Shown here: in pieces, positions 2,903 to 22,576 of the stretch
Numbering within the stretch: the stretch's first letter is position 1
Layout: every line of letters starts with the position of its first letter
From: Clostridiaceae bacterium
Lineage (GTDB): Bacteria; Bacillota; Clostridia; Lachnospirales; Lachnospiraceae
NCBI GenBank assembly: GCA_009911065.1
Contig: QXWR01000018.1
Location: 1 to 64,000 of the forward strand
Direction: 5' to 3'
Length of the DNA: 64,000 bases
The notes under the pieces: model-generated
The model's database searches: none
Told to the model about the DNA's origin: nothing
The model's input: only the letters and a program-made list of their open reading frames with translations
Position numbers and translations under genes: made by a program

Positions 2903-2998
2903 TATAATCGGCAGAAATTGGAGTTACTATGCGGAACCTTGTCAAAAAATTAACGTTTTAGACAAAGCCGTGAATATTTTAAAATGGAGGATTGCAAA

Positions 2999-4453: not shown

Positions 4454-4470
4454 GATGAGGTGACGTGTAT

Positions 4471-5265: not shown

Positions 5266-5293
5266 GTGAATAGAAAACAGGAGGATTTTGATC

Positions 5294-5665
5294 ATGAAGA
5301 ATTATACAATCACAGTCAATGGTAATGTGTATGAAGTATCTGTAGAAGAGGGCGCTTTCACTGGTGCTCCGTCTGCATCTGCTCCAAAAGCCGCCCCCAA
5401 GGCAGCTCCGAAAGCGGCTCCCAAGGCAGCGGCTCCTGCCGGCGCACAGGGCGCGGTGGCTGTGAGCGCTCCCATGCCTGGAAAGATTCTTGCTGTGAAG
5501 GCAAGCGCTGGACAGGCTGTGAAAAAAGGTGATGTGATCATGGTTTTAGAGGCCATGAAGATGGAAAATGATATTGTGGCTCCTCAGGACGGAACCATTG
5601 CAACGATCAACGTGTCTGTGGGCGATTCCGTAGAGCCGGGAGCTGCTCTTGCTACTATGAACTAA
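5294..5665 (+). CDS. Biotin carboxyl carrier subunit
   Basis: Carries CO2 on biotin between carboxyltransferase and membrane pump. Seen: a short N-terminal segment, a flexible linker with repeated AAPK units (about residues 30-46), and a biotinyl/lipoyl domain with the attachment motif EAMKMEND, biotin on K89. The 123-residue length fits transcarboxylase 1.3S and MmdC proteins. AGGAGG lies eight bases before ATG 5294. It is the only carrier gene in the operon and so must serve both carboxyltransferases encoded around it; this is inference from gene content. Confidence 0.92.
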   Translation: MKNYTITVNGNVYEVSVEEGAFTGAPSASAPKAAPKAAPKAAPKAAAPAGAQGAVAVSAPMPGKILAVKASAGQAVKKGDVIMVLEAMKMENDIVAPQDGTIATINVSVGDSVEPGAALATMN

Positions 5666-5741
5666 ATCTGCTGATAATAATGATTGTTGCGGCCTGGGGC
5701 TTTCCAGGCGGCAATGACCAATTCCACATGGAGGGATTAAA

Positions 5742-6890
5742 ATGGATTATATTGCAACGACAATGTCTAATCTTCTTCAGCAGACAGCATTTTGCAACCT
5801 TACATTCGGTAACTTTCTGATGATTGCAGTGGCGCTGTTTTTCCTGCTGCTGGCCATCAAATTCGGATTTGAACCGCTTCTTTTGGTTCCGATTGCATTT
5901 GGTATGCTGCTTGTCAATATCTATCCGGATATTATGGCAAAGCCTGAAGATATGTCAAATGGTGTAGGCGGACTTCTTCACTACTTTTTCCTGTTAGATG
6001 AATGGAGCATTCTGCCGTCTCTGATTTTCATGGGCGTAGGCGCTATGACGGATTTTGGTCCGCTGATTGCGAATCCAAAAAGCTTCCTTTTAGGCGCTGC
6101 GGCTCAGTTTGGTATTTATGCCGCTTATTTTATGGCAATCTTTATGGGATTCAACGACAGGGCTGCTGCTGCCATTTCCATCATCGGCGGCGCGGACGGT
6201 CCTACTTCTATCTTCCTGGCTGGTAAGCTGGGTCAGACCGAGTTTATGGGTCCCATCGCTGTGGCAGCTTATTCTTACATGGCTTTGGTGCCGATTATTC
6301 AGCCTCCGATTATGAAGCTTATGACTTCGGAAAAAGAGCGGAAGATTAAGATGGAGCAGCTCCGTCCGGTTTCCAAACTGGAAAAGATTCTGTTCCCCAT
6401 TATTGTTACTATCGTAGTATGTTTGATTCTGCCCACCACAGCTCCTCTTGTTGGTATGCTTATGCTGGGCAATTTGTTCCGGGAGTCCGGAGTGGTAAAG
6501 CAGCTGATGGAAACCGCCAGCAATGCTTTGATGTACATTGTAGTGATTCTTCTTGGCACCTCCGTAGGAGCAAGTACCAGCGCAGAGGCATTTTTGAAGG
6601 TGACAACTTTACAGATCGTGGCTTTGGGATTGATTGCGTTTGCTTTTGGAACCGCTGCAGGCGTGTTCTTTGGCAAGGTTATGTGTAAACTTACCGGAGG
6701 CAAGGTAAACCCGTTAATCGGTTCTGCCGGCGTATCGGCAGTTCCCATGGCGGCCCGGGTGTCTCAGAAGGTAGGAGCAGAGGCAGATCCCACCAACTTC
6801 CTGCTGATGCATGCCATGGGTCCCAATGTGGCCGGAGTAATCGGTACAGCAGTGGCGGCAGGCACATTTATGGCGATTTTTGGAGTATAA
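5742..6890 (+). CDS. Na+-translocating decarboxylase beta subunit (OadB/MmdB/GcdB)
   Basis: Integral membrane subunit that decarboxylates carboxybiotin and exports Na+. Seen: 382 residues with about ten hydrophobic spans, the conserved GGADGPTSIFLAG loop (family Na+-site Asp) and the C-terminal GSAGVSAVPMAARVSQ and NFLLMHAMGPNVAGVIG motifs. GGAGGG stands before the ATG. Length and motifs are complete, so a working pump is expected. The substrate is set by the partner carboxyltransferase, not by this protein. Confidence 0.93.
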   Translation: MDYIATTMSNLLQQTAFCNLTFGNFLMIAVALFFLLLAIKFGFEPLLLVPIAFGMLLVNIYPDIMAKPEDMSNGVGGLLHYFFLLDEWSILPSLIFMGVGAMTDFGPLIANPKSFLLGAAAQFGIYAAYFMAIFMGFNDRAAAAISIIGGADGPTSIFLAGKLGQTEFMGPIAVAAYSYMALVPIIQPPIMKLMTSEKERKIKMEQLRPVSKLEKILFPIIVTIVVCLILPTTAPLVGMLMLGNLFRESGVVKQLMETASNALMYIVVILLGTSVGASTSAEAFLKVTTLQIVALGLIAFAFGTAAGVFFGKVMCKLTGGKVNPLIGSAGVSAVPMAARVSQKVGAEADPTNFLLMHAMGPNVAGVIGTAVAAGTFMAIFGV

Positions 6891-7005
6891 TTCTTTATGC
6901 GCCTGACATGGACTGTATTGTTTGGGAAGAAGGTCTGGCAGGCGCATGGATATACGAAAATCGCCTCTGTCAATCAACTTTGTAAGAATTAGGAGGGAAA
7001 TGAAA

Positions 7006-8415
7006 ATGGCAATCGAGAAGAAGCCGGTTAAGATCGTGGAGACGGTTTTGCGTGACGCTCACCAGTCCTTAATCGCGACCAGAATGAGCACCGAGCAGAT
7101 GCTGCCCATTATTGATAAAATGGACCAAATCGGTTATTATGCGGTAGAGTGCTGGGGCGGAGCTACCTTTGACGCCTCCCTGCGTTTTTTGAAGGAAGAT
7201 CCATGGGAGCGTCTTCGGAAGCTGAAAGCAGGCTTTAAGAATACAAAGCTGCAGATGCTGTTCCGTGGACAGAACATCCTGGGATACAACCACTATGCAG
7301 ATGATGTGGTAGAGTATTTTGTGCAGAAGTCTGTGGCAAATGGTATTGACATCATTCGTATTTTTGACTGTCTCAATGACCTGCGCAATCTCCAGACCGC
7401 TGTGACAGCTGCCAACAAAGAAAAGGCCCATGCTCAGATCGCTCTGTGCTATACATTAGGGGATGCTTACACCATGGAGTACTGGAGAGACATTGCCAAG
7501 AGGATTGAGGATATGGGTGCAGATTCCATCTGTATCAAGGATATGGCAGGACTTTTGACTCCTTATGCAGCCCAGGAATTGGTGGCTGCCCTGAAAGAAT
7601 CTACAGCGCTGCCCATTGATCTTCATACCCACTATACATCCGGCGTGGCTTCCATGACTTACTTAAAGGCAGTGGAGTCTGGGTGTGACATTATTGATAC
7701 TGCTATGTCTCCTCTGGCTCTTGGAACCAGCCAGCCAGCCACAGAGGTTATGGTGGAAACCTTCCGGGGAACTCCTTTTGACACTGGGCTGGATCAGGTA
7801 AAGCTGGCAGAGATTGCAGATTACTTTACCCCTATCCGGGAGCAGGTGTTAAAGAGCGGTCTGTTAAATCCCAAGGTGCTGGGAGTAAATATCAAGACGC
7901 TCCAGTATCAGGTTCCTGGAGGCATGTTGTCCAACTTGGTGTCTCAGCTGAAAGAGGCAGGAAAGGAAGACAAGTACCGGGAAGTGCTGGAGGAGATTCC
8001 GCGGGTGCGGAAAGACTTTGGAGAGCCGCCTCTGGTTACTCCGTCTTCTCAGATCGTGGGAACTCAGGCAGTTATGAACGTAATTGCCGGCGAGCGTTAC
8101 AAGATGGTTCCAAAGGAATCCAAAAAGATTATGCTTGGAGAGTTTGGCCAGACCGTAAAGCCATTTAATCCGGAAGTTCAAAAGAAGATCATTGGAGACG
8201 AGACTCCCATTACCTGTCGTCCGGCTGATTTGATTCCGCCTCAGCTGCCTCAGTTTGAAAAAGAGTGCGCTCAGTGGAAGCAGCAGGAGGAGGATGTGTT
8301 GTCCTATGCTCTGTTCCCCAAGGTAGCGGAAGAGTTCTTTAAATACCGTGAGGCACAGCAGACCAAGGTAGATTCTACTGTGGCAGATACACAGAGCAAG
8401 GCTTATCCGGTGTAA
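7006..8415 (+). CDS. Oxaloacetate decarboxylase alpha / transcarboxylase 5S-type carboxyltransferase
   Basis: Transfers the carboxyl group of oxaloacetate (or the reverse onto pyruvate) to or from biotin. Seen: TLRDAHQSL at the start of the HMGL-like TIM barrel, ECWGGATFDASLRFL, LFRGQN, metal ligands in DLHTHYTSG, and the lysine region IKDMAGLLTPY; the C-terminal conserved carboxylase domain follows (TPSSQIVGTQA). It lacks a biotin domain; the separate carrier gene supplies it. With 469 residues it matches the 5S subunit rather than a full OadA of about 590. The start is ATG 7006, nine bases after AGGAGG; ATG 7000 is too close. Confidence 0.9.
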   Translation: MAIEKKPVKIVETVLRDAHQSLIATRMSTEQMLPIIDKMDQIGYYAVECWGGATFDASLRFLKEDPWERLRKLKAGFKNTKLQMLFRGQNILGYNHYADDVVEYFVQKSVANGIDIIRIFDCLNDLRNLQTAVTAANKEKAHAQIALCYTLGDAYTMEYWRDIAKRIEDMGADSICIKDMAGLLTPYAAQELVAALKESTALPIDLHTHYTSGVASMTYLKAVESGCDIIDTAMSPLALGTSQPATEVMVETFRGTPFDTGLDQVKLAEIADYFTPIREQVLKSGLLNPKVLGVNIKTLQYQVPGGMLSNLVSQLKEAGKEDKYREVLEEIPRVRKDFGEPPLVTPSSQIVGTQAVMNVIAGERYKMVPKESKKIMLGEFGQTVKPFNPEVQKKIIGDETPITCRPADLIPPQLPQFEKECAQWKQQEEDVLSYALFPKVAEEFFKYREAQQTKVDSTVADTQSKAYPV

Positions 8416-10180: not shown

Positions 10181-11086
10181 GTGGACAAAATCGTGTGGAA
10201 TGAGAAGTTTAATATAGGTGTGGATGTGGTGGATACGGCCCATGCGGGAATTTTCCGGATGGTGGGAAAGCTGATGGAACTAGTAGAGTATCAGCCAGAT
10301 TGCCAGGAAGCATGTAAGGAAAGTATTAAATTTCTGGAAGATTATACGATGATTCATTTTTCACAAGAGGAAGCTTATATGCGTTCCATTGAATACAAAG
10401 GATACGGAAAGCACAAAAAACACCATGACGATTTCCGGGACATTACTTTGGTTTCTCAGAAGGAACATCTGGAGTTGTCGGATTACTCTCCCGTAGCCGT
10501 GAGAAGGTTTGTGGGAGTGTTGATTGGATGGCTGACCGGGCATATTATGACAGAAGACCAGGGGATTACAGGCAATATTGAGACCAGACAGATATACGAC
10601 GAAACCCCGGACACAGCCATTATATCCAACGCCGTCAATCAGGCGATGGGAGATATTTTTCATCTGAAAGCAGAACTAATCAGTCCCGTATACAATGGAG
10701 GCAGCATTCGAAAGGGATATTATTACCGTTTATGTTACCATATGGAAGACGGAGGAGAGATGCAGCTGCTTCTGGCAATGGAGGAGCAGCTGGCCCGCCG
10801 GGGAGTTGGCATGATGTTAGGACTGGCTTCCATGCAAAAGCCTGAGTTGGTAAAAGATGCCGCTTTACAGATTTTAAAACAGTTTTTCCATCATATGGGA
10901 AAAATGTTTAAATCCGATGCAAACTATAAAATCTGTAAAGAAGAGATCTTAAGCCGCCATGAGTTTCGGGAAGATTTTATGACCCGGTATTCTACCAATC
11001 TGCTTTATGAGACCAGACTGGGATATTTTATATTTTGTTCCCGGAAGAGGATGGAAGGCAAAGAATCTCTTTCATACACTGGATAA
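10181..11086 (+). CDS. Bacteriohemerythrin domain fused to a C-terminal CheX-like region
   Basis: Residues 1-135 form a hemerythrin, an O2-binding di-iron four-helix bundle: H21 (VDTAHAGIF), HFSQEEAYM, GKHKKHHDDF and HIMTEDQGI are the expected iron ligands. Residues 145-300 resemble a CheX-type fold (NAVNQAMGDIFHL, then AALQILKQFFHHMGKMF), weakly recognised. An oxygen-sensing signalling role is inferred. The start is GTG 10181 with GGAGG upstream. The 3-prime end overlaps the convergent LysR gene by 59 bases. Confidence 0.8.
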   Translation: MDKIVWNEKFNIGVDVVDTAHAGIFRMVGKLMELVEYQPDCQEACKESIKFLEDYTMIHFSQEEAYMRSIEYKGYGKHKKHHDDFRDITLVSQKEHLELSDYSPVAVRRFVGVLIGWLTGHIMTEDQGITGNIETRQIYDETPDTAIISNAVNQAMGDIFHLKAELISPVYNGGSIRKGYYYRLCYHMEDGGEMQLLLAMEEQLARRGVGMMLGLASMQKPELVKDAALQILKQFFHHMGKMFKSDANYKICKEEILSRHEFREDFMTRYSTNLLYETRLGYFIFCSRKRMEGKESLSYTG

Positions 11087-11981
11087 ATCGTTGATCTGCC
11101 TTGGATAAATAAATATCCTGACAGGTGGCGATGCACATGTCCCAAAATGCTTCATACTGTTTGTGGATGGAGAAAAGGGCAGGAGATGTCTCATGTCTGA
11201 CCGTGAGGCGGGCATATTCCAAAGGAACCATGGTGATGCCTGCCCCCTGTGCAGCCAGAAGTTGTGCAGTGGTGTGATTTTTTACAGTCATGGCGGTGGT
11301 AATCTGACGGATGCCTGCTCTTTTTAAAACGGAATCGGTAACTTGACGGATTCGTTGTCCGGAGTGAAGGCGAATCATAGGCTGCTTTTCCAGAAGGCGG
11401 ATGTCCAGGACAGGGTGAGTGTATCCATCCAGAACATTTGCCTTAGAAATCAGGGGATGGTCCGGGCAAGTGACAACCACAAAAGGATCTCGTTCCAGCA
11501 ATTCGTATTGGATCTTGCCAGATTGGATTTCAATGGGGGCATGCATAAGGACAAAATCCACCTCTCCTGCAAGAAGACGTTTTTCCAGACCATCGCTGTT
11601 GTCTTCTGTCACAAGAACTTCCACAAAAGGGCAGAGCTTCTGGAAACGTTTCATGGTTTTTGGAAGAATCAGGGTTCCCAGATGATTGGTGATGCCCAGG
11701 TGAATCCGACCGGTTTTTAAATTGTTCATGTCACTGATCTCAAGTTCAAAGTTCTCATAAATCTTTAAAATCTGTGCTGCCATATGGCAGTAGCGTTCTC
11801 CTGCATAAGTGAGGGTAAGACCAGAAGTGGTGCGGTGAAAAAGAGCCACCCCCAGTTGTTCTTCCAGCTTTTGGACAGACTGGCTTAGGGATGGCTGGGC
11901 GATATAGAGCTTTCTGGCAGCTTTGGAAATGTTTTTTTCTTCAGCAATGGTTTTTATGTAGAGAAGTTCACGGCTGGTCAT
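11028..11981 (-). CDS. LysR-family regulator, divergent from the tricarboxylate cluster
   Basis: A 317-residue DNA-binding regulator. Seen: an N-terminal winged helix with NISKAARKLYIAQPSLSQSVQKLE, then the two-lobe effector domain (GRIHLGITNHLG, VDFVLMHAPI, GITMVPLEYARL). Divergent placement beside aconitase-family genes recalls CcpC, the citrate-sensing LysR protein of Bacillus that controls aconitase; this is an analogy, not a demonstrated orthology. Two matching 15-bp LysR-type boxes lie in the shared promoter region. Confidence 0.88.
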   Translation of the reverse strand: MTSRELLYIKTIAEEKNISKAARKLYIAQPSLSQSVQKLEEQLGVALFHRTTSGLTLTYAGERYCHMAAQILKIYENFELEISDMNNLKTGRIHLGITNHLGTLILPKTMKRFQKLCPFVEVLVTEDNSDGLEKRLLAGEVDFVLMHAPIEIQSGKIQYELLERDPFVVVTCPDHPLISKANVLDGYTHPVLDIRLLEKQPMIRLHSGQRIRQVTDSVLKRAGIRQITTAMTVKNHTTAQLLAAQGAGITMVPLEYARLTVRHETSPALFSIHKQYEAFWDMCIATCQDIYLSKADQRFIQCMKEILCLPSSSGNKI

Positions 11982-12024
11982 GGGCGGGGAATCCTTTCTT
12001 TTCGTTTAACTGGTTATACGAATG

Positions 12025-12046
12025 CTCCATTTTCTGTCCGGATGGA
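12025..12046 (+). repeat. 22-bp duplicated repeat, copy 1
   Basis: The 22 bases from CTCCATTTTC to CCGGATGGA recur without change at 39186-39207, 27 kb away. Both copies are intergenic. It is too long to be chance in this window; origin unknown. Confidence 0.7.
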
Positions 12047-12090
12047 TCACGAATCTTTTGAAACGGCGGTATAAGTGAGCGTGGTGGTAT

Positions 12091-12136
12091 ATAGGAAAAA
12101 CCTATGAATTATATAATAATTATAGTATTTTACTAT
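12091..12136. promoter_or_regulatory. Two tandem LysR-type operator boxes
   Basis: ATAGG-AAAAA-CCTAT (12091-12105) and ATAGT-ATTTT-ACTAT (12122-12136) are perfect 5-5-5 dyads of LysR T-N11-A form. Their centres are 31 bp apart, three helical turns, as for recruitment and activation sites. Between them lies another dyad, AATTAT-ATA-ATAATT (12107-12121). The boxes sit about 70-115 bases before the first cluster gene and 110-155 before the LysR start, so they can serve both directions. Confidence 0.6.
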
Positions 12137-12205
12137 ATATCTGTCAAGTGGTAAAATCAAGACAACAAGAGAGAGGATTGGAACTACATAACAGGAGGTA
12201 TGGAT

Positions 12206-14500
12206 ATGGTAAAACTATATGATGGAGGAGTCTATCTGGTAAAGGGAAGGGAGATTGTTCCGGAAAAGGAGGCGGCAAAAGTAGCTGTGCTTACTGGAAG
12301 GGAAGCAGACCGGGAACAGGCCAGACAGGGAACTATAGCTTATAGTATCATTAAGGATCACAATACCAGCGGGGATATGGACCATTTAAAGCTTAAATTT
12401 GACGCTCTCACTTCCCATGATATTACGTTTGTAGGAATCATTCAAACGGCCAGAGCATCTGGAATGACGGAATTTCCCGTTCCCTATGTTCTGACCAACT
12501 GCCACAATTCTCTGTGTGCCGTGGGAGGCACGATCAATGAGGATGATCATGTGTTTGGCTTGTCTGCATGTGAGAAATACGGCGGTATCTTTGTTCCGCC
12601 TCATATTGGGGTGATTCATCAGTACATGCGGGAGACCATGGCAGGAGGCAGAAAGATGATTCTTGGCTCTGACAGCCACACCCGGTATGGGGCATTGGGA
12701 ACCATGGCAGTAGGAGAAGGAGGCGGAGAGCTGGTCAAGCAGCTTTTAAAGGATACTTATGATGTGACTTTTCCCGGGGTGGTAGGAGTCTATTTGGACG
12801 GGAAGGTAAGCCCGGGAGTGGGACCGCAGGATATTGCGCTGGCCATAATCGGCGCAGTATTTTCCTGTGGCTATGTAAAAAATAAGGTAATGGAATTTGT
12901 GGGTCCGGGCATTTCCCATATGACCACAGATTTTAGAAACGGCATTGATGTGATGACCACAGAGACTACCTGCTGGACTTCCATCTGGAGAACCGATGAG
13001 GACACAAAGGCGTATTTGACAGAACATGGAAGAGGGGAGGATTATGAGGAGCTAAATCCGGCGGAGGTGGCTTATTATGACGGGATGGTCTATGTAGATC
13101 TGTGTTCCGTAAAGCCCATGATCGGTCTGCCATTCCACCCCAGCAACACCTTTGAGATTGACCAGGTAAATGCCAATTTGGGAGATATTTTAAGAGAGGT
13201 GGAAAAAGAAGCGGCCCGTCTTTTGGGAGACAAAGCTTCTTTATGTCTGACGGACAAGATTACAGACGGGAAGCTGATGGTGGAGCAGGGAATTATTGCA
13301 GGGTGTGCAGGGGGAAATTATACCAACCTAATGGAAGCTGCCCACATTCTGAAAGGGAAAAGCTGCGGAAACGGTGTGTTTAATCTGTCTGTGTATCCGT
13401 CCTCACAGCCGGTTTATATGGAACTGGTGAAAAATGGGGCGGCAGCAGAGTTAATGTCAGCAGGGGCTGCCTTAAAGACCGCATTTTGCGGGCCGTGTTT
13501 TGGGGCAGGGGATACGCCTGGGAACAATGGTCTTAGCATTCGCCACACCACCCGTAATTTCCCCAACCGGGAAGGATCAAAACCAGGAGCAGGCCAGATG
13601 TCTGCAGTAGCTTTGATGGATGCCCGTTCCATTGCGGCAACTGCAGCAAACGGGGGAATCCTTACAAGCGCAGCATCCGTGGCAGATGGTTATACGGCGC
13701 CAGCATACCATTTTGACAATACAGTATATAAAAACAGGGTTTACAATGGGTATCAGGCAGGAGATCCTTCCAAAGAGCTGATTTACGGTCCCAACATTAA
13801 AGACTGGCCAGAGATGACCCGTTTGACGGATCATATTCTGTTAAAGGTTTGTTCCAAAATTATGGATAAGGTTACGACTACAGATGAGCTGATTCCTTCC
13901 GGGGAGACTTCGTCGTATCGGTCCAATCCTTTGGGACTGGCAGAATTTACACTTTCCAGAAGAGATCCAGAATATGTGGGGCGGGCCAAGGAAGTGGATA
14001 AAGTGGAAAAAGCCAGACAGACCGGAGTCTGTCCCACAGAGACAGAACCTGGGCTGAAAGAAATTTTTGAAAAAATTCACACCATTCCCGGAATGGATAA
14101 GGTGACCGCTTTGGAAACCGAGATTGGCAGTATGATCTATGCAGTGAAACCGGGAGACGGCTCGGCAAGAGAACAGGCGGCCAGCTGTCAGAGAGTTCTT
14201 GGAGGTCTTGCCAACATTGCAAAAGAGTATGCCACCAAACGATACCGCTCCAATGTAATGAACTGGGGAATGATTCCCTTCCAGATGGAAAAGGAGCCAG
14301 ATGAATTTCAGGTGGGAGATTATATTTTTGTGCCGGGAATCCGGGAGGCCCTTTTTGGGGATGGAAAGAATATAAAGGCATATGTGATTGGGGAGACAGT
14401 GAAAGAAATTCATCTTTATCTTGGAGAGATGACACAGGAAGAGAAAAAGATTGTGGAGGCTGGGTGTCTGATTAACTATAACCGGAACCGGCGTCTGTAA
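12206..14500 (+). CDS. Aconitase-family hydratase, YbhJ-like (first copy)
   Basis: A 764-residue member of the aconitase superfamily resembling the uncharacterised E. coli YbhJ rather than true aconitase. Seen: [21 protein letters not shown] (substrate and cluster region), Fe-S ligand positions C367 (GCAGG), C428 and C431 (CGPCFG), [16 protein letters not shown], and a C-terminal swivel domain with [13 protein letters not shown]. All three cluster cysteines are present, so a [4Fe-4S] hydro-lyase is expected; the substrate is unknown. ATG 12206 sits seven bases after AGGAGG; ATG 12200 would be too close. First gene of the cluster. Confidence 0.85.
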
Positions 14501-14526
14501 CCAATAGGTAAAGGAGGAGAACGTAT

Positions 14527-16482
14527 ATGGCACAAAATTTGTCAAGAAAGATTTTGGCGGCACATTTGGCAAAGCCGTCCAAAATGGAGGTTGGGGAAGA
14601 GATTTATTTGAAGGTAGATCAGACATTGACCCATGATATTAATGCGGTTATGACCTACCTGGCTTTTGAAGCCATTGGTCTTGATTGTACCAAGGTGGAG
14701 ACCAGCGTAAGTTATCTGGATCACAATCTTTTGTATCTGGATCACAAGACGCCAGATGACCACATTTACCTTCAGTCTGCGGCAAAGAAATTGGGAGTTT
14801 ATGTGTCAAGACCGGGCAATGGTATCTGCCATGCAGTGCAGGTGGCCAGATTTGGGGTTCCAGGCAAGCTTTCCATGGGAGGAGACAGCCATACGCCCCA
14901 CGGCGGTTCCATTGGCATGATGTGTATCGGCGTGGGGGGAATGGATGTGGCCACAGCCATGACCGGACTGCCCATGAGGCTGAAAATGCCTAAGATTATC
15001 AAAGTAAACCTGACTGGAAGGTTAAGACCAGGATGCAATGCAAAGGACGTAATTTTAGAAATGCTTCGCCAAAATACAGTTAAGGGCGGACTTGGGAAGA
15101 TTTATGAATATGTCGGTCCCGGAGTTTCTACATTGGAAGTTTCCGACCGGGTGACGATTACCAACATGGGGGCAGAGCTTGGGGCTACCACATCCATTTT
15201 CCCGGCAGATGACATGGTTCGGAAATTTATGAAGGCACAGGGGAGAGAAGATGCGTTTGTAGAAATGTATCCAGAGGAAGGGTGCAGCTATGACGGGGAG
15301 ATTGACATTGATTTAAGCAGCCTGAAACCGCTGATTGCCTGCCCCCATCAGCCGGACAATGTGACGACGGTGGAAGAAGTGGAAAAAAAGAAGGTGCAGC
15401 AAGTTTTAATTGGCGGGTGTACCAATGGAAGCTACAAGGACATTGCCAAAGCAGCTTTGGTTCTTCAGGGACGTCACGTTCATGAGGATGTAAGCTGTAC
15501 CTGCGTGGTTTCTTCCAAACAGATTTACAAGCAGCTTCTGCGGGACGGGTATCTTGAGATGCTGATTGATGCAGGGGTCCGGCTGCTGGAGCTGGCCTGC
15601 GGGCCATGCTGCGCTATCGGTCAGTCTCCTGCCACAGACGGGGTGGCAGTACGGACCACCAACCGGAATTTTAAGGGGCGGGCAGGAAATCCCACGGCTT
15701 TGGTGTATTTGGTGAGCCCAGAGACCGCGGCAGCCTGCGCAGTGACCGGGACTTTTTCCACAGCAGAAGAAATTTTGGGGACTGGGGTGGTTATGCTTGA
15801 CAAAATTGTGGAGCCAGAAGAGTATCCAATAGATGACTCTATGATTATCCGTCCATTATCCAGGGAGGAAGCAGCAAAGGAAGAGATTGTCCGGGGACCG
15901 AATATTGCGCCTCTTCCAGTGCCAGATGCGCCGGAACAGACTTTGGAGTGCAAGGTCAGCTTAAAGACAACGGATAATATTACCACAGACGATATTACTC
16001 CTGCCAGTGCAGAGTTTTCCAGTATGCGCTCCAACATTCCCCTGATGAGCCAGTATTGTTATCACCGGTATGACCCTGATTTTGCCTCAAGGGCAAAGGA
16101 GCTGGGAAAGAGCGTGATTATTGGGGGAGAGAATTATGGGCAAGGTTCTTCCAGAGAGCACGCGGCCATTAATCCTATGTATTTGGGAGTAAAGGCGGTG
16201 ATTGCCAAGAGCATGGCCCGGATTCACAAAGGAAATCTGGTGAACCATGGAATCATTCCCATGATTTTTGAAAATCCAAAGGATTACGATCAGGTGGATT
16301 TGATGGATGAGTTGGTAATTGAAAATTTGAGAGATCAGATTCCTCAAAGAATCGTGGAAGTGGAAAATAAAACCAAGAAAACCCGGTTTCGGGCCAAAAT
16401 AGAGTTGTCAGACAACGAGGTGGAAGTGATTCTGTGCGGCGGGCAGCTGCGGTATTTGAAGAAACAGCTAAAATATGTTTGA
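14527..16482 (+). CDS. Aconitate hydratase
   Basis: Isomerises citrate and isocitrate through cis-aconitate. The 651 residues match the short, mitochondrial-like bacterial aconitases. Seen: TLTHDINAVMTYLAFE, GDSHTPHGGSIGMMCIGVGG, cluster cysteines C298 (GGCTNGS), C358 and C361 (CGPC), TTNRNFKGRAGNP, the swivel domain TTDDITPA, and active-site Ser/Arg in GENYGQGSSREHAA. Complete by length and motifs. It follows the YbhJ-like gene by 26 bases and has its own GGAGG. In a neighbourhood with a dehydrogenase next, citrate to 2-oxoglutarate is the obvious route, although no citrate synthase is here. Confidence 0.92.
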   Translation: MAQNLSRKILAAHLAKPSKMEVGEEIYLKVDQTLTHDINAVMTYLAFEAIGLDCTKVETSVSYLDHNLLYLDHKTPDDHIYLQSAAKKLGVYVSRPGNGICHAVQVARFGVPGKLSMGGDSHTPHGGSIGMMCIGVGGMDVATAMTGLPMRLKMPKIIKVNLTGRLRPGCNAKDVILEMLRQNTVKGGLGKIYEYVGPGVSTLEVSDRVTITNMGAELGATTSIFPADDMVRKFMKAQGREDAFVEMYPEEGCSYDGEIDIDLSSLKPLIACPHQPDNVTTVEEVEKKKVQQVLIGGCTNGSYKDIAKAALVLQGRHVHEDVSCTCVVSSKQIYKQLLRDGYLEMLIDAGVRLLELACGPCCAIGQSPATDGVAVRTTNRNFKGRAGNPTALVYLVSPETAAACAVTGTFSTAEEILGTGVVMLDKIVEPEEYPIDDSMIIRPLSREEAAKEEIVRGPNIAPLPVPDAPEQTLECKVSLKTTDNITTDDITPASAEFSSMRSNIPLMSQYCYHRYDPDFASRAKELGKSVIIGGENYGQGSSREHAAINPMYLGVKAVIAKSMARIHKGNLVNHGIIPMIFENPKDYDQVDLMDELVIENLRDQIPQRIVEVENKTKKTRFRAKIELSDNEVEVILCGGQLRYLKKQLKYV

Positions 16483-16546
16483 AAATTGTTTTTTGCCAGA
16501 CACACGCTAAAAGAAAAAACAAATATAAAGAAGGAGAGGATATTTT

Positions 16547-17728
16547 ATGGAAGCAGTAAGAGAAGCAGAGGTAGAGGCAAAAGCAAAGGAGAAGTTTGGT
16601 CAGCTCATAAAAGAAGAATTTGGACGGATTGAGCGGATGAAGCAGGATACAGAGCTGACGGATTTTGCCGAGCTGGACACGATTGTCATTGGGGTGTTGC
16701 CGGGAGATGGAATCGGGCCGATTATTATGAAGGAGGCGCTGCGGGTTTTAAATTGTCTGCTGGAGCCGGAGATCAAAAGCGGACGGGTGGAAATCCGGAT
16801 GATTGAGGGAATGACCATTGAAAACCGGGCAGCCAAGCTTCAGAGTCTGCCAGATGAGGTGTTTGAGGAGATCAAAAAATGTAATGTGATTTTGAAAGGA
16901 CCGATGGTGACGCCGAGAGCCGGGGAGCCGTGGCCAAATCTGGTCTCTGCCAACAGCCTGCTTCGGCGGGGGCTGGAATTGTTTGCAGCAGTACGTCCGA
17001 TTAAAATTCCGGAAAAGAACATTGACTGGACCTTTTTCCGTGAAAATATTGAGGGAGAGTACATATGGGGCAATAAGGGAATCCAGGTGAACGAGGATTT
17101 GGCTGTTGATTTTAAGGTTCAGACAAAGCAGGGAAGCGAGCGGATTGCAAGGGCTGCTTTTGAATACGCCAGAAAAAACGGCAAGAAAAATGTGACCATT
17201 GTGACCAAGGCCAATATTGTAAAGCTGGCAGACGGAAACTTTATCAAGGCGGTTCGCAGAGTGGGCCAGGACTATCCGGAGATTGAGATTCAGGAGCGGC
17301 TGGTAGACGCTATGTGCGCCAAGATGCTGGATGCAGAGTTTAACAAAGGGATTGAAGTGATTGTGCTTCCAAACTTGTACGGGGATATTGTGACCGACGT
17401 GGCGGCAGAACATCAGGGCGGCTTAGGGACAGCTTCCTCCTCCAACTTGGGAAATAAATATGCCATGTTTGAGGCGATTCACGGCACAGCCCCCTTTTTA
17501 ATTGACCATGGACGGGGAGATTATGCAGATCCTTGTTCTCTCATTCGGGCGGCAGGAATGCTGATGGCTCACATTGGATATGGAGACAGAAAAGATATTT
17601 TGGATAAAGCTCTTGATGTCTGCACCATTACCGATCGAAAGAAAGTGGTGACAACCGATGTGGACGGAGCCAGTGCAGCGGAGTTTACAGATTATTTGCT
17701 AGAGACAATAGAAGGAAAGAAAGGGTGA
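16547..17728 (+). CDS. Isocitrate/isopropylmalate dehydrogenase family enzyme, probably isocitrate dehydrogenase
   Basis: Oxidative decarboxylation of a 2-hydroxy-3-carboxy acid with NAD(P). Seen: LPGDGIGPIIMKEALRVL, substrate-loop SANSLLRRGLELFAAVRPIKI, FRENIEGEYIWG, VTKANIVKL, and the metal-site aspartates in PNLYGDIVTDVAAEHQGG. The cofactor loop reads HGTAPFLIDHGRGDYADP, longer than in standard enzymes, so NAD versus NADP cannot be judged. An N-terminal extension of about 45 charged residues precedes the fold. Sitting after aconitase, isocitrate is the likely substrate, but a homologous acid is possible given the PrpF-like neighbour. 393 residues. Confidence 0.82.
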   Translation: MEAVREAEVEAKAKEKFGQLIKEEFGRIERMKQDTELTDFAELDTIVIGVLPGDGIGPIIMKEALRVLNCLLEPEIKSGRVEIRMIEGMTIENRAAKLQSLPDEVFEEIKKCNVILKGPMVTPRAGEPWPNLVSANSLLRRGLELFAAVRPIKIPEKNIDWTFFRENIEGEYIWGNKGIQVNEDLAVDFKVQTKQGSERIARAAFEYARKNGKKNVTIVTKANIVKLADGNFIKAVRRVGQDYPEIEIQERLVDAMCAKMLDAEFNKGIEVIVLPNLYGDIVTDVAAEHQGGLGTASSSNLGNKYAMFEAIHGTAPFLIDHGRGDYADPCSLIRAAGMLMAHIGYGDRKDILDKALDVCTITDRKKVVTTDVDGASAAEFTDYLLETIEGKKG

Positions 17729-17745
17729 AAGAATGACCTTTCACC
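17724..17745 (+). terminator. Intercistronic hairpin in the tricarboxylate cluster
   Basis: GGTGAAAG / CTTTCACC, an 8-bp perfect stem with a 6-base loop that overlaps the dehydrogenase stop codon. No T run follows, so it more likely adjusts mRNA stability or coupling than ends transcription. Confidence 0.45.
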
Positions 17746-17789
17746 TATACCGGTATGTGCTGTGAAACATGCACAGAATGGAGGAAAAA

Positions 17790-18932
17790 ATGAGAAAATT
17801 CAAGACGGTTTTTATGCGGGGCGGCACCAGCAAGGGCTGTATGTTTCGAAGAGAGGATTTGCCTGAAAATCAAGAAGAGTGGGACAGCATTTTCCTTCAG
17901 GCTATGGGAGACCCGGACCCCAAACAGATTGACGGCATGGGAGGAACGGTTTCTTCCAACAATAAGATTGTCATTGTGTGGAAAAGCCAGGAGCCAGATA
18001 TAGATGTGGAGTACTTGGTGGGACAGGTGATTGTGGGAAAGAGTCAGGTGGATTACAAATCAAATTGCGGCAATATGACAGCAGCTGTAGGACCGTATGC
18101 AGTGGAAGAGAAAATGGTGGAGATTGTGGAGCCGGTGACTACGGTCCGGATGTTAAACCGCAATACAGACAAATACATTCATGTGACGGTTCCCATTGAT
18201 AGGGAGACAAAAAACTTTGCCCAGGAGGGAGATTGTGCCATTGCAGGGGTAGACGGCACGGCAGCAGAGCTTCGGGTGAATTTTTTAAACCCTGCAGGAG
18301 CAAAGACCGGAAAGCTTCTGCCAACGGGAAACGTTATGGATGTGCTTTTGATTCCAGGTTTTGGGGAGATTTCGGCTACGATTTTAGATGTATCCAATCC
18401 TATGGTTTTGGTGCGGGCAGAAGATATTGGCATGAAAGGAACCGAACTTCCAGAGGAGATCAACAGCAATGAACAAGTTTGTGAGTTGTTGGAAAAGATT
18501 CGGGGAACTGCAGCCTGTATGATGGGGTTTGCAAAAGATTTAAAGGATGCCACAAAACATTCACCGGCAGTTCCAAAGGTGGGCTTTTTTGCAAAGCCAG
18601 TTTCCTTTTTGGATTTGGAGGGAAAGCTGGTGGACAAGGCAGACATGGATATTTGTGTCCGAGTGATTTCCGTATTTCAGTGTCATAAGGCGTGTCCGCT
18701 GACGTCTGCAAGTTCCATTTCTGTGGCAGCGTTTCTGGAGGGAAGCCTGGTTTATCAGGAGCTTCATGGAGTGGAAGAGGGAAAAGATACCGTCCGCATC
18801 GGCCATCCCAGCGGAGTTATGACAATGGCGCCCCATCTGGAAAAAGAAGGGGATGAGGTGAAGCTGCCTGGTGTGGCGGTTCAGAGAACCGCCAGAAGAA
18901 TTATGGACGGAATGATATACATTCGAAAATAA
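17790..18932 (+). CDS. PrpF-like aconitate/methylaconitate isomerase family protein
   Basis: PrpF-family proteins (diaminopimelate epimerase fold) move a double bond or flip cis/trans geometry in aconitate-like acids: 2-methylaconitate in propionate use, and 4-oxalomesaconate in a related tautomerase. Seen: FMRGGTSKGCMF near the start, K59 in GGTVSSNNK and C93 in SNCGNMTAA, matching the active-site Lys and Cys of PrpF, and GHPSGVMTMAP near the C-terminus. 380 residues, normal. ATG 17790 follows GGAGG; ATG 17769 is an unlikely earlier start. Its place among aconitase-family genes suggests it prepares an isomer, such as cis-aconitate from the trans form; the true substrate is unknown. Confidence 0.85.
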   Translation: MRKFKTVFMRGGTSKGCMFRREDLPENQEEWDSIFLQAMGDPDPKQIDGMGGTVSSNNKIVIVWKSQEPDIDVEYLVGQVIVGKSQVDYKSNCGNMTAAVGPYAVEEKMVEIVEPVTTVRMLNRNTDKYIHVTVPIDRETKNFAQEGDCAIAGVDGTAAELRVNFLNPAGAKTGKLLPTGNVMDVLLIPGFGEISATILDVSNPMVLVRAEDIGMKGTELPEEINSNEQVCELLEKIRGTAACMMGFAKDLKDATKHSPAVPKVGFFAKPVSFLDLEGKLVDKADMDICVRVISVFQCHKACPLTSASSISVAAFLEGSLVYQELHGVEEGKDTVRIGHPSGVMTMAPHLEKEGDEVKLPGVAVQRTARRIMDGMIYIRK

Positions 18933-18958
18933 GGCAGGAAAAGGAAGCGGGGATTGGG

Positions 18959-21220
18959 ATGATCAAACAGATAAAACAGGGCGGATTTTTGACAGGTGAT
19001 GGGTGTGAGTTTTTGGAGAGAGGGCCATGGACAGCAGATGAGGGAAGAATGAAAACCATGACCTGGAAGATTCTCAATGCCCATAATCACAGTGACAACA
19101 TGAGACAGCTGAAGCTGAAATTTGATGGTCTGGTGTCGCCGGACAACAATTATGTAAATATCCTTCAGACTGCCAGAGCCAGCAACATGAAACAGTTTCC
19201 GGTTCCCTATGTGCTGTCCAACTGCCATCATACATTGTGCGCAGTGGGAGGAACCATCAATGAAGATGACCATGTGTTTGGCCTTGGAAATGCAAAAAAG
19301 TATGGCGGTATTTATGTGCCGCCATACAAGGCGGTTCTTCACCAGTACATGCGGGAGATGATGGCTGGATGCGGGAAAATGATATTGGGTTCTGACAGCC
19401 ATACCCGGTATGGGGCCTTGGGAACCATGGGTATTGGGGAAGGCGGCGGCGAGGTGGCAAAGCAGCTTTTGGGAAAGACTTATGATTTGAATTATCCGGA
19501 AGTGATCGGGGTGAAGCTGACTGGATGCCCCCGCCCTGGCGTAGGTCCTCATGATGTGGCTCTGGCTTTGGTGGCAGCTACCTTTTTGAACCATTTTACC
19601 AAAAATAAGATTCTGGAGTTTGTAGGACCAGGAATTGGCAATCTGACCATGGAATACCGAATGGGGATTGATGTGATGACAACGGAAAGCGCTGCCCTTT
19701 CCAGCATTTGGTGTACTGATGAAAAGACCAGAGAATATTTGGCAGAACATGGCAGAGGGGACGCCTATGAGGAGCTGAAGCCGGAAGAGGGGGCGTTTTA
19801 TGACGGGTTTATTGAGATAAATTTGTCCCAGGTGGAGTGTATGATTGCCCTGCCCTTTCATCCAAGCAATGCCATGACAATCAGTGCCTTTAAGGAAAAT
19901 ATGGCGGAGATTCTTGAAGAGCTGGAAAGAGAGGGCCAGAAGATCAAAGGAGGGAAGGGAAAGCCATTTTCTCTCTTGTCCCACATAAAGGATGGAGAAT
20001 TTTATGTAGATCAGGCCCTGGTTAGCGGATGCAGCGGAGGTTTGTTTGAAAATATCGGCGCAGTGGCAGATATTTTAAGAGGACATGAAATTGCAGGAAA
20101 CGGACTTTCTATGGGAATCAACCCAGCCAGCTTGCCAGTAATGGAGGATTTGATGAATCAGGGGCTGGGGGCGGAGCTGGCTCTTTTGGGAGTTACGTTA
20201 AGGCCATGTATCTGCGGTCCGTGTTTTGGCGTCACGGATGTTCCTGCTGACAACCAGGTCAGCATCCGTCATATGACAAGAAATTATCCCAATCGGGAAG
20301 GGTCCAAGCCAGAACAGGGGCAGATGGCGGCCTGCTGTCTTATGGATGCCCGTTCCATAGCAGCCACCGTGAGAAACGGCGGGCGTCTTACCAGCGCAAC
20401 CGAAATTTCCGTAGAGTACCGGCCGTGGAAACATCATTTTCGTCCGGAGATTTATGAGAAACAGATCTTTGACAATTTCGGAAAGGGAGATCCTAAGGTG
20501 ACTTTGGTTATGGGACCCAACATTGGGGACTGGCCGAAAATGTATCCTTTGAAAAAGCATCTCCTTTTAAAGGTTGCAGGGGCTTACGATAGTTCCGTTA
20601 CCACAGACGAGCTGATTCCCTCTGGGGAGGCGTCGTCATTTCGCTCCAATCCGGAAAAAATATCCGACTATATGATGATCAGCCGGGACAAAGGATATGT
20701 GGAGAGGGCGAAGGCAATCCGCAGTCTGGAAGAAGCCCTTCGGGAAAATGGAAGGACCAAAGAGGAGTCCTTAAATGGTCTTTTGGAAATGATTTCGAAA
20801 CAATATGGAGGGACTATCCGGGATATTCGCCTGGGAAGCGTGATGGTTGGCACGCAGATCGGTGACGGTTCTTCAAGAGAGCAGGCGGCCAGCAGCCAGA
20901 AGGTTCTTGGAGGGTTTGCCAATATTGCCAATGAGTATGCCACCAAACGATACCGTTCCAATCTGATTAACTGGGGGATTCTTCCTTTAAGGACAGAGGA
21001 AGAGCTGACTCTTTTGGTGGGAGACTATGTGCTGATTCCCAATGTGAGAGATTTAATTCTTAGGGGAGAGAAACCAGTGGAGGCACAAGTTTTTGGCGGA
21101 TGCCAGGAAGCGTCCAAAGAGCAGGGCAGCAAAAAGATATGCTGCACCTTGGACGATCTGACAGAGGATGAAAAACAGATTTTATTAGACGGATGTTTGA
21201 TCAATTATTACAGCCGCTGA
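18959..21220 (+). CDS. Aconitase-family hydratase, YbhJ-like (second copy)
   Basis: A 753-residue paralogue of the first gene of the cluster, sharing long near-identical motifs ([29 protein letters not shown]) but diverged elsewhere. Fe-S cysteines are kept: C358 (GCSGG), C419 and C422 (CGPCFG). The swivel-domain GDGSSREQAASSQ is present. The residue after the first Cys differs (S versus A), and the loop QTARASNMKQFPVPYVLSNCHH parallels that of copy 1, so the two may act on related acids or form a pair. The ribosome site is only a loose purine stretch. Last gene of the cluster. Confidence 0.85.
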   Translation: MIKQIKQGGFLTGDGCEFLERGPWTADEGRMKTMTWKILNAHNHSDNMRQLKLKFDGLVSPDNNYVNILQTARASNMKQFPVPYVLSNCHHTLCAVGGTINEDDHVFGLGNAKKYGGIYVPPYKAVLHQYMREMMAGCGKMILGSDSHTRYGALGTMGIGEGGGEVAKQLLGKTYDLNYPEVIGVKLTGCPRPGVGPHDVALALVAATFLNHFTKNKILEFVGPGIGNLTMEYRMGIDVMTTESAALSSIWCTDEKTREYLAEHGRGDAYEELKPEEGAFYDGFIEINLSQVECMIALPFHPSNAMTISAFKENMAEILEELEREGQKIKGGKGKPFSLLSHIKDGEFYVDQALVSGCSGGLFENIGAVADILRGHEIAGNGLSMGINPASLPVMEDLMNQGLGAELALLGVTLRPCICGPCFGVTDVPADNQVSIRHMTRNYPNREGSKPEQGQMAACCLMDARSIAATVRNGGRLTSATEISVEYRPWKHHFRPEIYEKQIFDNFGKGDPKVTLVMGPNIGDWPKMYPLKKHLLLKVAGAYDSSVTTDELIPSGEASSFRSNPEKISDYMMISRDKGYVERAKAIRSLEEALRENGRTKEESLNGLLEMISKQYGGTIRDIRLGSVMVGTQIGDGSSREQAASSQKVLGGFANIANEYATKRYRSNLINWGILPLRTEEELTLLVGDYVLIPNVRDLILRGEKPVEAQVFGGCQEASKEQGSKKICCTLDDLTEDEKQILLDGCLINYYSR

Positions 21221-21434: not shown

Positions 21435-22034
21435 GTGAAAAGAAGAAAAAATGTGGACCAAGATGCAGGCTTGGTAAGCCGTTGGAGACGGCTGGCAGTT
21501 ATGTTTTGGGTTATGGCAAAAATAGGGTGTTTTACCTTTGGAGGAGGGTGGAGCATTATTGGCCAGATGCAAAATGAATTTGTGGAGAAGCGCAAATGGA
21601 TGACTGAGGAGCAGATTCTTGATTTTATGTCTTTGGCAAGATCTTTTCCGGGAATTATGATCATCAATATGTCGGTGTTATGCGGTTATGCCATGGAAGG
21701 GGTGGCTGGGGCAGTGTCAGCGGCTTTTGGGCTGTCCATGCCAGCTTTGTTTGCCATTGGGCTGGTGGCGTATTTTTATGAGGGGTTGCGAAACAATCCA
21801 TATGTGGAAAAAGTGCTGGCAGGAGTCCGGTGTGTGGTGATTCCCATTATTTTGCAGGCGACGTGGAAGTTAAGGGGAAAATCTCTGATTTCTGCGGCGT
21901 CCTGGGTTTTTGTGACAGCGTCATTTTTGGTGTGTGCATTTACCAGCGTCAGCAAGCCTCTTGTCATTGTAGCAGGGGCGGTTTTGGGATTTCTGGTTTT
22001 TCAAAATGTCAGTAAAGAAGGGGAAAAAAAATGA
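21435..22034 (+). CDS. Chromate transporter family protein, N-terminal half type
   Basis: A single-domain CHR protein (199 residues, about six spans). Seen: FWVMAKIGCFTFGGGWSIIGQMQNE, the FGGG signature, and FVEKRKWMTEEQILDFMSLARSFPGIMIINM with the PG motif of the family. Two short CHR proteins made together form one transporter in Bacillus. Chromate export is the family name only; the substrate in anaerobes is not established. The start is GTG 21435 after GGAGG. Its stop overlaps the next start (ATGA). Confidence 0.85.
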   Translation: MKRRKNVDQDAGLVSRWRRLAVMFWVMAKIGCFTFGGGWSIIGQMQNEFVEKRKWMTEEQILDFMSLARSFPGIMIINMSVLCGYAMEGVAGAVSAAFGLSMPALFAIGLVAYFYEGLRNNPYVEKVLAGVRCVVIPIILQATWKLRGKSLISAASWVFVTASFLVCAFTSVSKPLVIVAGAVLGFLVFQNVSKEGEKK

Positions 22035-22576
22035 TTCTGATTCAGTTGTTTTTGTCTTTTATGAAAATCGGTTTTTTCAGCTTTGGGGGATTGACCATGA
22101 TTCCGGTGATCAATGACGAGGTTCTGGCCCATGGGTGGATGACAGCAGACGAGGTGATGGATATTGTGGCAGTGGCAGAGATGACCCCAGGTTCTTTGGG
22201 GATTAACTGTGCTACATTTGTGGGACTTCGGGCGGCTGGGATTATGGGGGCTTTCAGCGCTTCCATTGGGGTTATGATGCCTTCCCTGACTCTTTGTATG
22301 GCAGCCGCTCATTTTATCTTAAAATTAAAGGGAAATACCATGATGGAAAGGATTATGAGGGGAATCAGACCGGTAAGTATGGGAATGCTTCTGGCAACGG
22401 CGCTCACATTAAGCCTGACCACATTTTTTTCACCGGCAGGGGGATATGAGCTGGCGGGGATTCGGTGGAATTTGATTTGCATTGCAGGAATCTGTGGATT
22501 TTTTATGTTTCGGTTTAAGCTCTCCATTCCAAAGACGATTCTCATGGCAGCAATCCTGGGATTTTTCTGGGGATGA
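22031..22576 (+). CDS. Chromate transporter family protein, C-terminal half type
   Basis: The partner of the preceding CHR protein: 181 residues, about five or six spans. Seen: FLSFMKIGFFSFGGLTMIPVINDEV and VAVAEMTPGSLGINCATFVGLRAAG, the second-domain versions of the FGG and TPG motifs. The four-base overlap ties its translation to the upstream half, as in other split CHR pairs. Confidence 0.85.
   Translation: MILIQLFLSFMKIGFFSFGGLTMIPVINDEVLAHGWMTADEVMDIVAVAEMTPGSLGINCATFVGLRAAGIMGAFSASIGVMMPSLTLCMAAAHFILKLKGNTMMERIMRGIRPVSMGMLLATALTLSLTTFFSPAGGYELAGIRWNLICIAGICGFFMFRFKLSIPKTILMAAILGFFWG

Follow-up and report, generated by a model that had tools for sequence, protein, structure and literature searches.

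A five-gene operon pairing two YbhJ-family hydratases with a PrpF-family isomerase: a candidate route for trans-aconitate breakdown in a Lachnospiraceae genome

Introduction

Fermentation of trans-aconitate by Acidaminococcus fermentans, an anaerobic inhabitant of the alimentary tract, passes through citrate and oxaloacetate (PMC3035267), and in the tar system of Bacillus velezensis (TarR-TarA-TarB) TarA, an aconitate isomerase of the PrpF superfamily, acts in catabolism (PMC11495376). A PrpF-family isomerase also stands beside the hydratase YbhJ in the ybhD-ybhH-ybhI-ybhJ locus of Escherichia coli. The portion of the literature on E. coli YbhJ available to us assigns the protein no reaction, and its NCBI family is named just ‘hydratase’. 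Here we analyze a cluster of five genes at positions 12206–21220 of a 64,000-nucleotide stretch of DNA (positions 1 to 64,000 of contig QXWR01000018.1, assembly GCA_009911065.1, Clostridiaceae bacterium, family Lachnospiraceae), hereafter referred to as the window. The cluster encodes two YbhJ-family hydratases (YbhJ1 and YbhJ2), an aconitase (Acn), an isocitrate-type dehydrogenase and a PrpF-family isomerase.

Like the E. coli locus, the cluster combines a PrpF-family isomerase and YbhJ with a divergent LysR-type regulator gene, with 67% identity between YbhJ1 and E. coli YbhJ and 36% between the PrpF proteins. Unlike the cluster, the E. coli locus includes the putative tricarboxylate transporter YbhI and lacks Acn, the dehydrogenase and YbhJ2 at that site. 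In A. fermentans, the genes Acfer_1968-1973 comprise an isocitrate dehydrogenase (IDH), a MatC carrier and two aconitase-family genes (PMC3035267), a likeness drawn from the gene list rather than from sequence. The tar system likewise has a PrpF-superfamily isomerase under a dedicated regulator, but its operon holds an MFS importer and, in the portion of the report available, no hydratase or dehydrogenase is named, which is the reverse of the window operon (PMC11495376). The AcnD-PrpF pathway for 2-methylcitrate shares the pairing of an aconitase-family enzyme with a PrpF isomerase, including equivalents of K73 and C107, whereas the window has no AcnD by model score and the host genome no PF00285 synthase. 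Finally, in the citrate synthase-aconitase-IDH operons of related genomes, YbhJ1 fills the aconitase slot (loci L107 and L128 in our numbering); the window cluster differs in having no synthase and in adding PrpF, Acn and YbhJ2.

From this gene content we infer, with a little more than even confidence, that the operon serves the catabolism of an imported tricarboxylate, most likely the plant acid trans-aconitate, to which citrate and isocitrate would be linked as substrates. YbhJ1 would probably contribute ordinary aconitase chemistry by an enzyme without a prior reaction, which is useful in itself, while YbhJ2 is the part that is perhaps new. YbhJ thereby gains a concrete candidate reaction, that of aconitase; across 392 genomes of the order, no other aconitase-type enzyme accompanies citrate synthase as often. 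If true, a step of central metabolism that seems to be missing in many of these bacteria would be accounted for. The YbhJ2/PrpF module suggests that plant tricarboxylates are degraded anaerobically, possibly including a new hydroxycitrate pathway.

Organization of the operon

The five genes all lie on the plus strand and run in one direction, separated by intergenic gaps of 26–64 bases in the open reading frame (ORF) map of the window. A preliminary description of this DNA had listed two YbhJ proteins, a true aconitase, a dehydrogenase and a PrpF-like protein in this arrangement, and both the coordinates and the model matches (NF008503, NF005558, PF00180 and PF04303) agree with it. YbhJ1 is encoded at 12206–14500 (ORF-list start 12200), preceded by a Shine-Dalgarno-like AGGAGG at 12193–12198, and YbhJ2 at 18959–21220. 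Both exceed the 641-bit cut-off of NF008503 (PRK11413, the YbhJ hydratase family), with 1353.5 and 1008.5 bits, respectively, and they share 50% identity across 732 residues. Acn (14527–16482) passes the aconitate hydratase model NF005558 with 853.8 bits against a cut-off of 612. The dehydrogenase (16547–17728) matches PF00180, and the PrpF-family isomerase (17769–18932, its true start perhaps ~21 bases later) matches PF04303 with 399 bits.

Active sites and fold of the hydratases

We compared the active sites in a 115-sequence alignment that included 61 YbhJ1-type and 31 YbhJ2-type relatives, using mitochondrial aconitase (PDB: 1aco) as the reference for numbering. Both window proteins retain C358, C421, C424, H147, D165, S166, H167, E262, R447, R452, S642 and R644, in line with the earlier statement that their Fe-S cysteines are intact. 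The three cysteines, Ser642 and the arginines 447, 452 and 644, which we take to be the Fe-S cysteines, the catalytic serine and the substrate-binding arginines of aconitase, are kept in all 92 YbhJ relatives aligned.

At three other positions the two proteins are not aconitase-like, carrying Cys, Val and Thr in place of Asp100, Asn258 and Asn446. These replacements extend through the family: N258 is Val in 61/61 YbhJ1-type and 29/31 YbhJ2-type sequences, N446 is Thr in 61/61 and 30/31, and D100 is Cys in 61/61 and 30/31, the last position being less sure because the Acn rows are one column off at 100–101 and the structural model is poor there (residues 91–102). Two further positions separate the types. 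Q72 is His in Acn (19/19) and YbhJ1 (61/61) and Pro in YbhJ2 (31/31), while S643 is Ala in YbhJ1 (61/61) and Ser in YbhJ2 (31/31). The invariant D550 and R562 of YbhJ2 presumably correspond to D568 and R580 of aconitase, judging by the surrounding motif.

YbhJ2 proteins are monophyletic (32/32, support 0.966). They form, by sequence, a separate sub-clade with changed active-site residues that may hide new chemistry. The AlphaFold2 model of YbhJ2 has a mean predicted local distance difference test score (pLDDT) of 82, with residues 91–102, 547–560 and 636–638 below 50. It superimposes on aconitase 1aco over its full length, including the swivelling C-terminal domain (Z 36.2, root-mean-square deviation 3.0, 641 residues aligned). 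The large subunits of homoaconitase and isopropylmalate isomerase tie with aconitase for the first three domains (Z 36.6–37.1 versus 36.2), so the fold is silent on the substrate of YbhJ2.

YbhJ1 as a probable aconitase

By its sequence YbhJ1 is an orthologue of E. coli YbhJ. Both fall in a 12-member clade (support 1.0) that also contains four YbhJ proteins encoded next to citrate synthase (L107, L119, L121 and L122, the last three belonging to one genus). Phyletic exclusion and operon position together suggest that YbhJ1 probably performs the ordinary aconitase reaction, replacing the usual enzyme.

The phyletic counts cover 392 genomes of the window's order, searched with NF008503, NF005558, the AcnA model NF006757 and the AcnB model PF11791. 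YbhJ occurs in 254 genomes, NF005558 Acn in 54 and both in 8; AcnB was found in 0/392. In all eight genomes that have both, Acn scores 833–882 bits, the range of the window Acn, whereas the other NF005558 Acn proteins score at least 979 bits, except for two truncated ones and one lower-scoring one in a genome without YbhJ (G349). When the nine lower-scoring Acn are set apart, housekeeping-type Acn (45 genomes) and YbhJ overlap in none of the 392 genomes, a split that was drawn after the scores had been seen (unsplit overlap, 8). Within one family (f17), 32 genomes carry YbhJ and 24 carry Acn, with none shared. Among the 197 genomes with citrate synthase, 148 have YbhJ only, 9 YbhJ with AcnA, 4 YbhJ with cluster-type Acn, 16 Acn only and 13 AcnA only, and 7 match none of the four models. 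One family even shows the same operon with either enzyme, as HMGL-type synthase-Acn-IDH (L157, L158) or HMGL-type synthase-YbhJ1-IDH (L128), its synthases being 90–91% identical.

Gene neighbourhoods were taken from 69 YbhJ1-type loci, namely 46 from the best 80 of 405 matches, all 20 stretches of another search, and L147, L148 and L156. Within the fetched flanks, citrate synthase, an HMGL-type synthase and citrate lyase alpha each occur at 5/69 loci, and 54/69 have none of the three; the HMGL-type enzyme would be Re-citrate-synthase-like, although no NCBIfam model scores over its cut-off. The preliminary description had regarded the two hydratases as the strongest sign of undescribed chemistry. 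That view is weakened for YbhJ1 because of the synthase or lyase neighbours at 15/69 loci and the exclusion of housekeeping-type Acn, but may still apply to YbhJ2, in which Q72 is uniformly replaced by Pro.

Several points weigh against assigning the aconitase reaction to YbhJ. Its specificity could differ, given that the changes at N258, N446 and D100 occur in nearly all 92 relatives. Fisher's test on the YbhJ/Acn table gives 4e-16, an optimistic figure since the genomes are related and the counts are not independent events. The exclusion is not total either, as AcnA is co-resident with YbhJ in nine genomes and in E. coli, and the seven citrate synthase genomes that match no aconitase model have to be accommodated. 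One genus accounts for three of the five YbhJ1 loci linked to citrate synthase. In 89 genomes YbhJ is present with neither Acn nor a PF00285 citrate synthase, so that YbhJ is not tied to PF00285 synthase alone, and the assignment leaves a possible moonlighting of LeuC in play.

The YbhJ2 module across genomes

We examined 36 YbhJ2 loci, comprising 34 of the best 80 of 405 matches together with L153 and L154, chosen because their genomes carry Acn. Co-occurrence of neighbours was counted by tblastn, and clusters of unnamed neighbours came from homology-weighted gene picking. PrpF lies near YbhJ2 at 28/36 loci, IDH at 30/36 (window-type at 24/36) and Acn at 19/36, and several contigs are short, so that these and the following neighbour counts are lower bounds. 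The association with PrpF and IDH shows that the five-gene grouping is not due to chance, and the co-occurrence in other genomes that the preliminary description had asked about is thus found. A YbhJ1-YbhJ2 pair like that of the window is nevertheless rare (2/36). Three of the 36 loci have a second YbhJ in the YbhJ2 flank; it is of YbhJ1 type in two of them (L046 and L069), whereas that of L043 is a 50% relative of YbhJ2.

A 2HCT carrier accompanies YbhJ2 at 14/36 loci (13 of the CitS cluster) and TctA at 5/36, giving one or the other at 19/36, whereas a citrate synthase or Re-citrate-synthase-like gene is found near YbhJ2 at 0/36. This contrast between carriers and synthases is the reason for reading the module as catabolic.

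RraA-like genes are present at 17/36 YbhJ2 loci versus 0/69 YbhJ1 loci, which raises the rather improbable alternative of an anaerobic, previously undescribed pathway for plant hydroxycitrate. In it, YbhJ2, Acn and PrpF would produce hydroxyaconitate and hydroxyisocitrate from hydroxycitrate, the dehydrogenase with its aromatic cofactor site would yield 4-hydroxy-2-oxoglutarate and CO2, and an RraA- or HpcH-type aldolase would release pyruvate and glyoxylate, with YbhJ1 as a second type of aconitase displacing the classical one across much of the order. RraA and HpcH are, we assume, both class II pyruvate aldolase types, and such an aldolase acting after an isocitrate-type dehydrogenase would suit a 4-hydroxy-2-oxoacid and hence hydroxycitrate. 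All 14 RraA-like proteins checked carry D-x20-R-D, which we take to be the HMG/CHA aldolase motif. An esterase-like gene (Abhydrolase_3), possibly for lactone opening, occurs at 5/36 YbhJ2 loci, and the altered sites in YbhJ2 and the dehydrogenase also accord with an unusual substrate.

The same alternative draws on a locus of Ilyobacter polytropus (Fusobacteriota), in which an unannotated YbhJ (53% identical to YbhJ1, 50% to YbhJ2) is accompanied by Acn, PrpF and IDH, a 2HCT carrier, an HpcH-family protein instead of an RraA-like one, and a 2-hydroxyacid dehydrogenase; the best models for the last, PGDH (217 bits) and glyoxylate reductase (209 bits), are both below cut-off. Against hydroxycitrate, the host genome has no RraA-like gene (PF03737, 0 matches), RraA relatives also include oxaloacetate decarboxylases (as one model, matched at a score under its cut-off, is named), and the HpcH protein of Ilyobacter has a 44% relative that accompanies citrate lyase in L085. 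A literature search on hydroxycitrate catabolism turned up no such pathway in the portions of the sources available.

The Ilyobacter locus further contains tartrate-dehydrogenase-like, racemase and acid-kinase genes, and its YbhJ gene (L147:14303-16526) is split over two overlapping frames by a frameshift or a sequencing error. Four YbhJ2 loci (L040, L053, L066 and L070) are similarly joined to tartrate-dehydrogenase-like, class II aldolase, four-carbon acid kinase and Asp/Glu-racemase-like genes in a larger acid-degrading island. A conserved protein of 240–275 residues (L042:15913-16740 and relatives) follows the CitS-type carrier at six YbhJ2 loci; the two members scanned had no Pfam match. 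In three genomes of another genus (L149-L151), Acn and IDH occur together with neither PrpF nor YbhJ2 nearby.

Acn, dehydrogenase and PrpF

The window Acn clusters with 17 cluster-borne Acn proteins (support 0.997), a sub-group found with PrpF, IDH and YbhJ2. The dehydrogenase matched 18 NCBIfam models, each with a score under the cut-off. It keeps equivalents of S113, N115, R119, R129, R153, Y160 and K230 (positions and roles as we assume them from the E. coli enzyme), and S113/N115, presumably the isocitrate motif, is present in 21/21 window-type rows. By this substrate motif the enzyme is of the isocitrate type, which narrows the earlier designation as isocitrate/isopropylmalate-type.

Its cofactor site is unusual. 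At position 344, which we take to discriminate between NAD and NADP, an aromatic residue replaces the NAD-binding Asp: 21/21 window-type rows show Phe/Tyr-Leu with a three-residue insertion, whereas 11 other IDH-like rows have Asp-Ile. More distant relatives carry Phe-Leu (L105) or Arg-Met (L128). Neither the NAD-type Asp344 nor the NADP-type Lys344/Tyr345 occurs in the window-type enzymes, and the aromatic residue and insertion make the cofactor hard to predict.

The closest PDB chains to PrpF are 3g7k (3-methylitaconate isomerase) and 2pvz (PrpF). Equivalents of K73 and C107, described as catalytic residues of PrpF (PMC5690661), are present in 29/29 sequences aligned, that of the window included. 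Its scores stay under the cut-offs of the PrpF 2-methylaconitate isomerase model TIGR02334 (301.3 versus 440.55 bits) and the 4-oxalomesaconate tautomerase model NF033377 (318.5 versus 440 bits). On the latter score, a gallate-type (4-oxalomesaconate) substrate was rejected.

As relatives of this isomerase act on methylaconitate and 3-methylitaconate, the operon might handle another tricarboxylate, such as homocitrate or homoaconitate, tricarballylate-derived aconitate, or a relative of methylcitrate or itaconate; we give this little weight. The AcnD and homoaconitase models are far under their cut-offs, the dehydrogenase retains the isocitrate motif, and the genome has no PF00285 protein, the family to which methylcitrate synthase presumably belongs. 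With AcnD model TIGR02333 scoring 58 bits for YbhJ1, 79 for YbhJ2 and 147 for Acn against a cut-off of 1419.85, the methylcitrate (AcnD/PrpF) route was rejected. Of the earlier proposal that an unusual tricarboxylate is converted into a 2-oxoacid, the general idea and trans-aconitate thus gain support from gene content and comparative genomics and methylcitrate drops out, while nothing in the cluster speaks positively for itaconate, PrpB and itaconate genes lying outside the model searches.

A candidate pathway for trans-aconitate

In the trans-aconitate pathway that we favour, the acid would be taken up by a carrier encoded elsewhere, for which a CitS-type symporter and a relative of CitMHS/MatC-type carriers are candidates. 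PrpF, whose family and catalytic residues are evident from the alignment, may then isomerise trans-aconitate to cis-aconitate by shifting its double bond. Acn, YbhJ1 and YbhJ2 would hydrate and dehydrate among cis-aconitate, citrate and isocitrate, a role suggested by their family, Fe-S cysteines and substrate arginines and, for YbhJ2, by the modelled fold. Two exits can be envisaged, singly or together: the cluster dehydrogenase could convert isocitrate to 2-oxoglutarate, and citrate lyase could cleave citrate to oxaloacetate and acetate, with a Na+-pumping decarboxylase producing pyruvate. Trans-aconitate inhibits aconitase (PMC11495376), which suggests why loci with PrpF might carry a different aconitase.

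Other findings run counter to this pathway. One true aconitase with PrpF and IDH would be enough for trans-aconitate, which leaves the two YbhJ proteins unexplained, and the RraA-type genes of 17/36 YbhJ2 loci are superfluous unless they encode oxaloacetate decarboxylases. Citrate lyase alpha lies near YbhJ2 at just 2/36 loci, and PrpF falls short of both isomerase models. The ORF map and Pfam reveal no transporter ORF between 11028 and 21220. The phenotype of a ybhD mutant of E. coli was linked to malate rather than to a tricarboxylate (PMC9068703).

Content of the host genome

Absences in the host genome rest on assembly G000, which spans 5.37 Mb in 284 contigs with 6.2% contamination. The lack of a citrate synthase, first noted for the cluster, extends to this whole assembly: PF00285 has 0 matches, and a Re-citrate-synthase-like query gives one weak match (E 2.5e-8, 110 of 463 residues). 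The cluster would therefore draw on an acid from outside, unless the genome encodes a synthase that escaped recognition. The genome has two citrate lyases, one beside a CitS-type symporter and the other beside a 43% relative of the CitMHS/MatC-type carrier. They belong to distinct operons (L142 on contig C11, L143 on contig C202) whose carriers and LysR genes differ. The PF03737 search that yielded no RraA-like gene left other aldolases outside its scope.

The only PF00180 enzymes in the genome are the cluster dehydrogenase and LeuB (506 bits, cut-off 353), other isocitrate dehydrogenase families lying outside the search. An alternative that we consider unlikely builds on this finding: the cluster would be an oxidative branch that supplies 2-oxoglutarate for glutamate biosynthesis, from imported citrate or through an unrecognised synthase, with PrpF as a salvage side activity. 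Dehydrogenases 55–57% identical to that of the window do adjoin a Re-citrate-synthase-like gene together with Acn or YbhJ1 (L128, L157 and L158). Set against this are the missing citrate synthase, the carriers and absent synthases at the YbhJ2 loci, and the presence of three hydratases, more than such a branch needs.

In G258 (2.2 Mb), the only other listed genome of the same genus, the models for YbhJ, NF005558 Acn, AcnA and citrate synthase were all unmatched at the thresholds used.

Flanking genes

Divergent from the operon, a LysR-type regulator gene (PF03466/PF00126) occupies 11028–11981 on the minus strand. Among the 25 NCBIfam matches listed for it, none of which reaches its cut-off, CidR ranks first (127 bits). 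Two genomes from a single other genus (L118, L120) have regulators 50–51% identical to it next to YbhJ1, again divergently, and the window gene is likely the regulator of ybhJ1. The intergenic region between them (11982–12205) contains AT-rich inverted repeats and, towards the LysR gene, a 12/12 match to a sigma-70-like site; these are consensus matches only.

Upstream, a Na+-pumping complex of the oxaloacetate decarboxylase type (carboxyltransferase, gamma, biotin carrier, beta and alpha; 2984–8415, plus strand) stops 2.6 kb before the LysR gene and is not counted as part of the operon. It is a possible downstream step of the pathway. The complex combines an MmdA-like carboxyltransferase with an OadA-like alpha subunit, and its substrate could be oxaloacetate or methylmalonyl-CoA. 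Downstream of the operon, a chromate-transporter pair at 21435–22576 belongs to another family than the tar-type importer.

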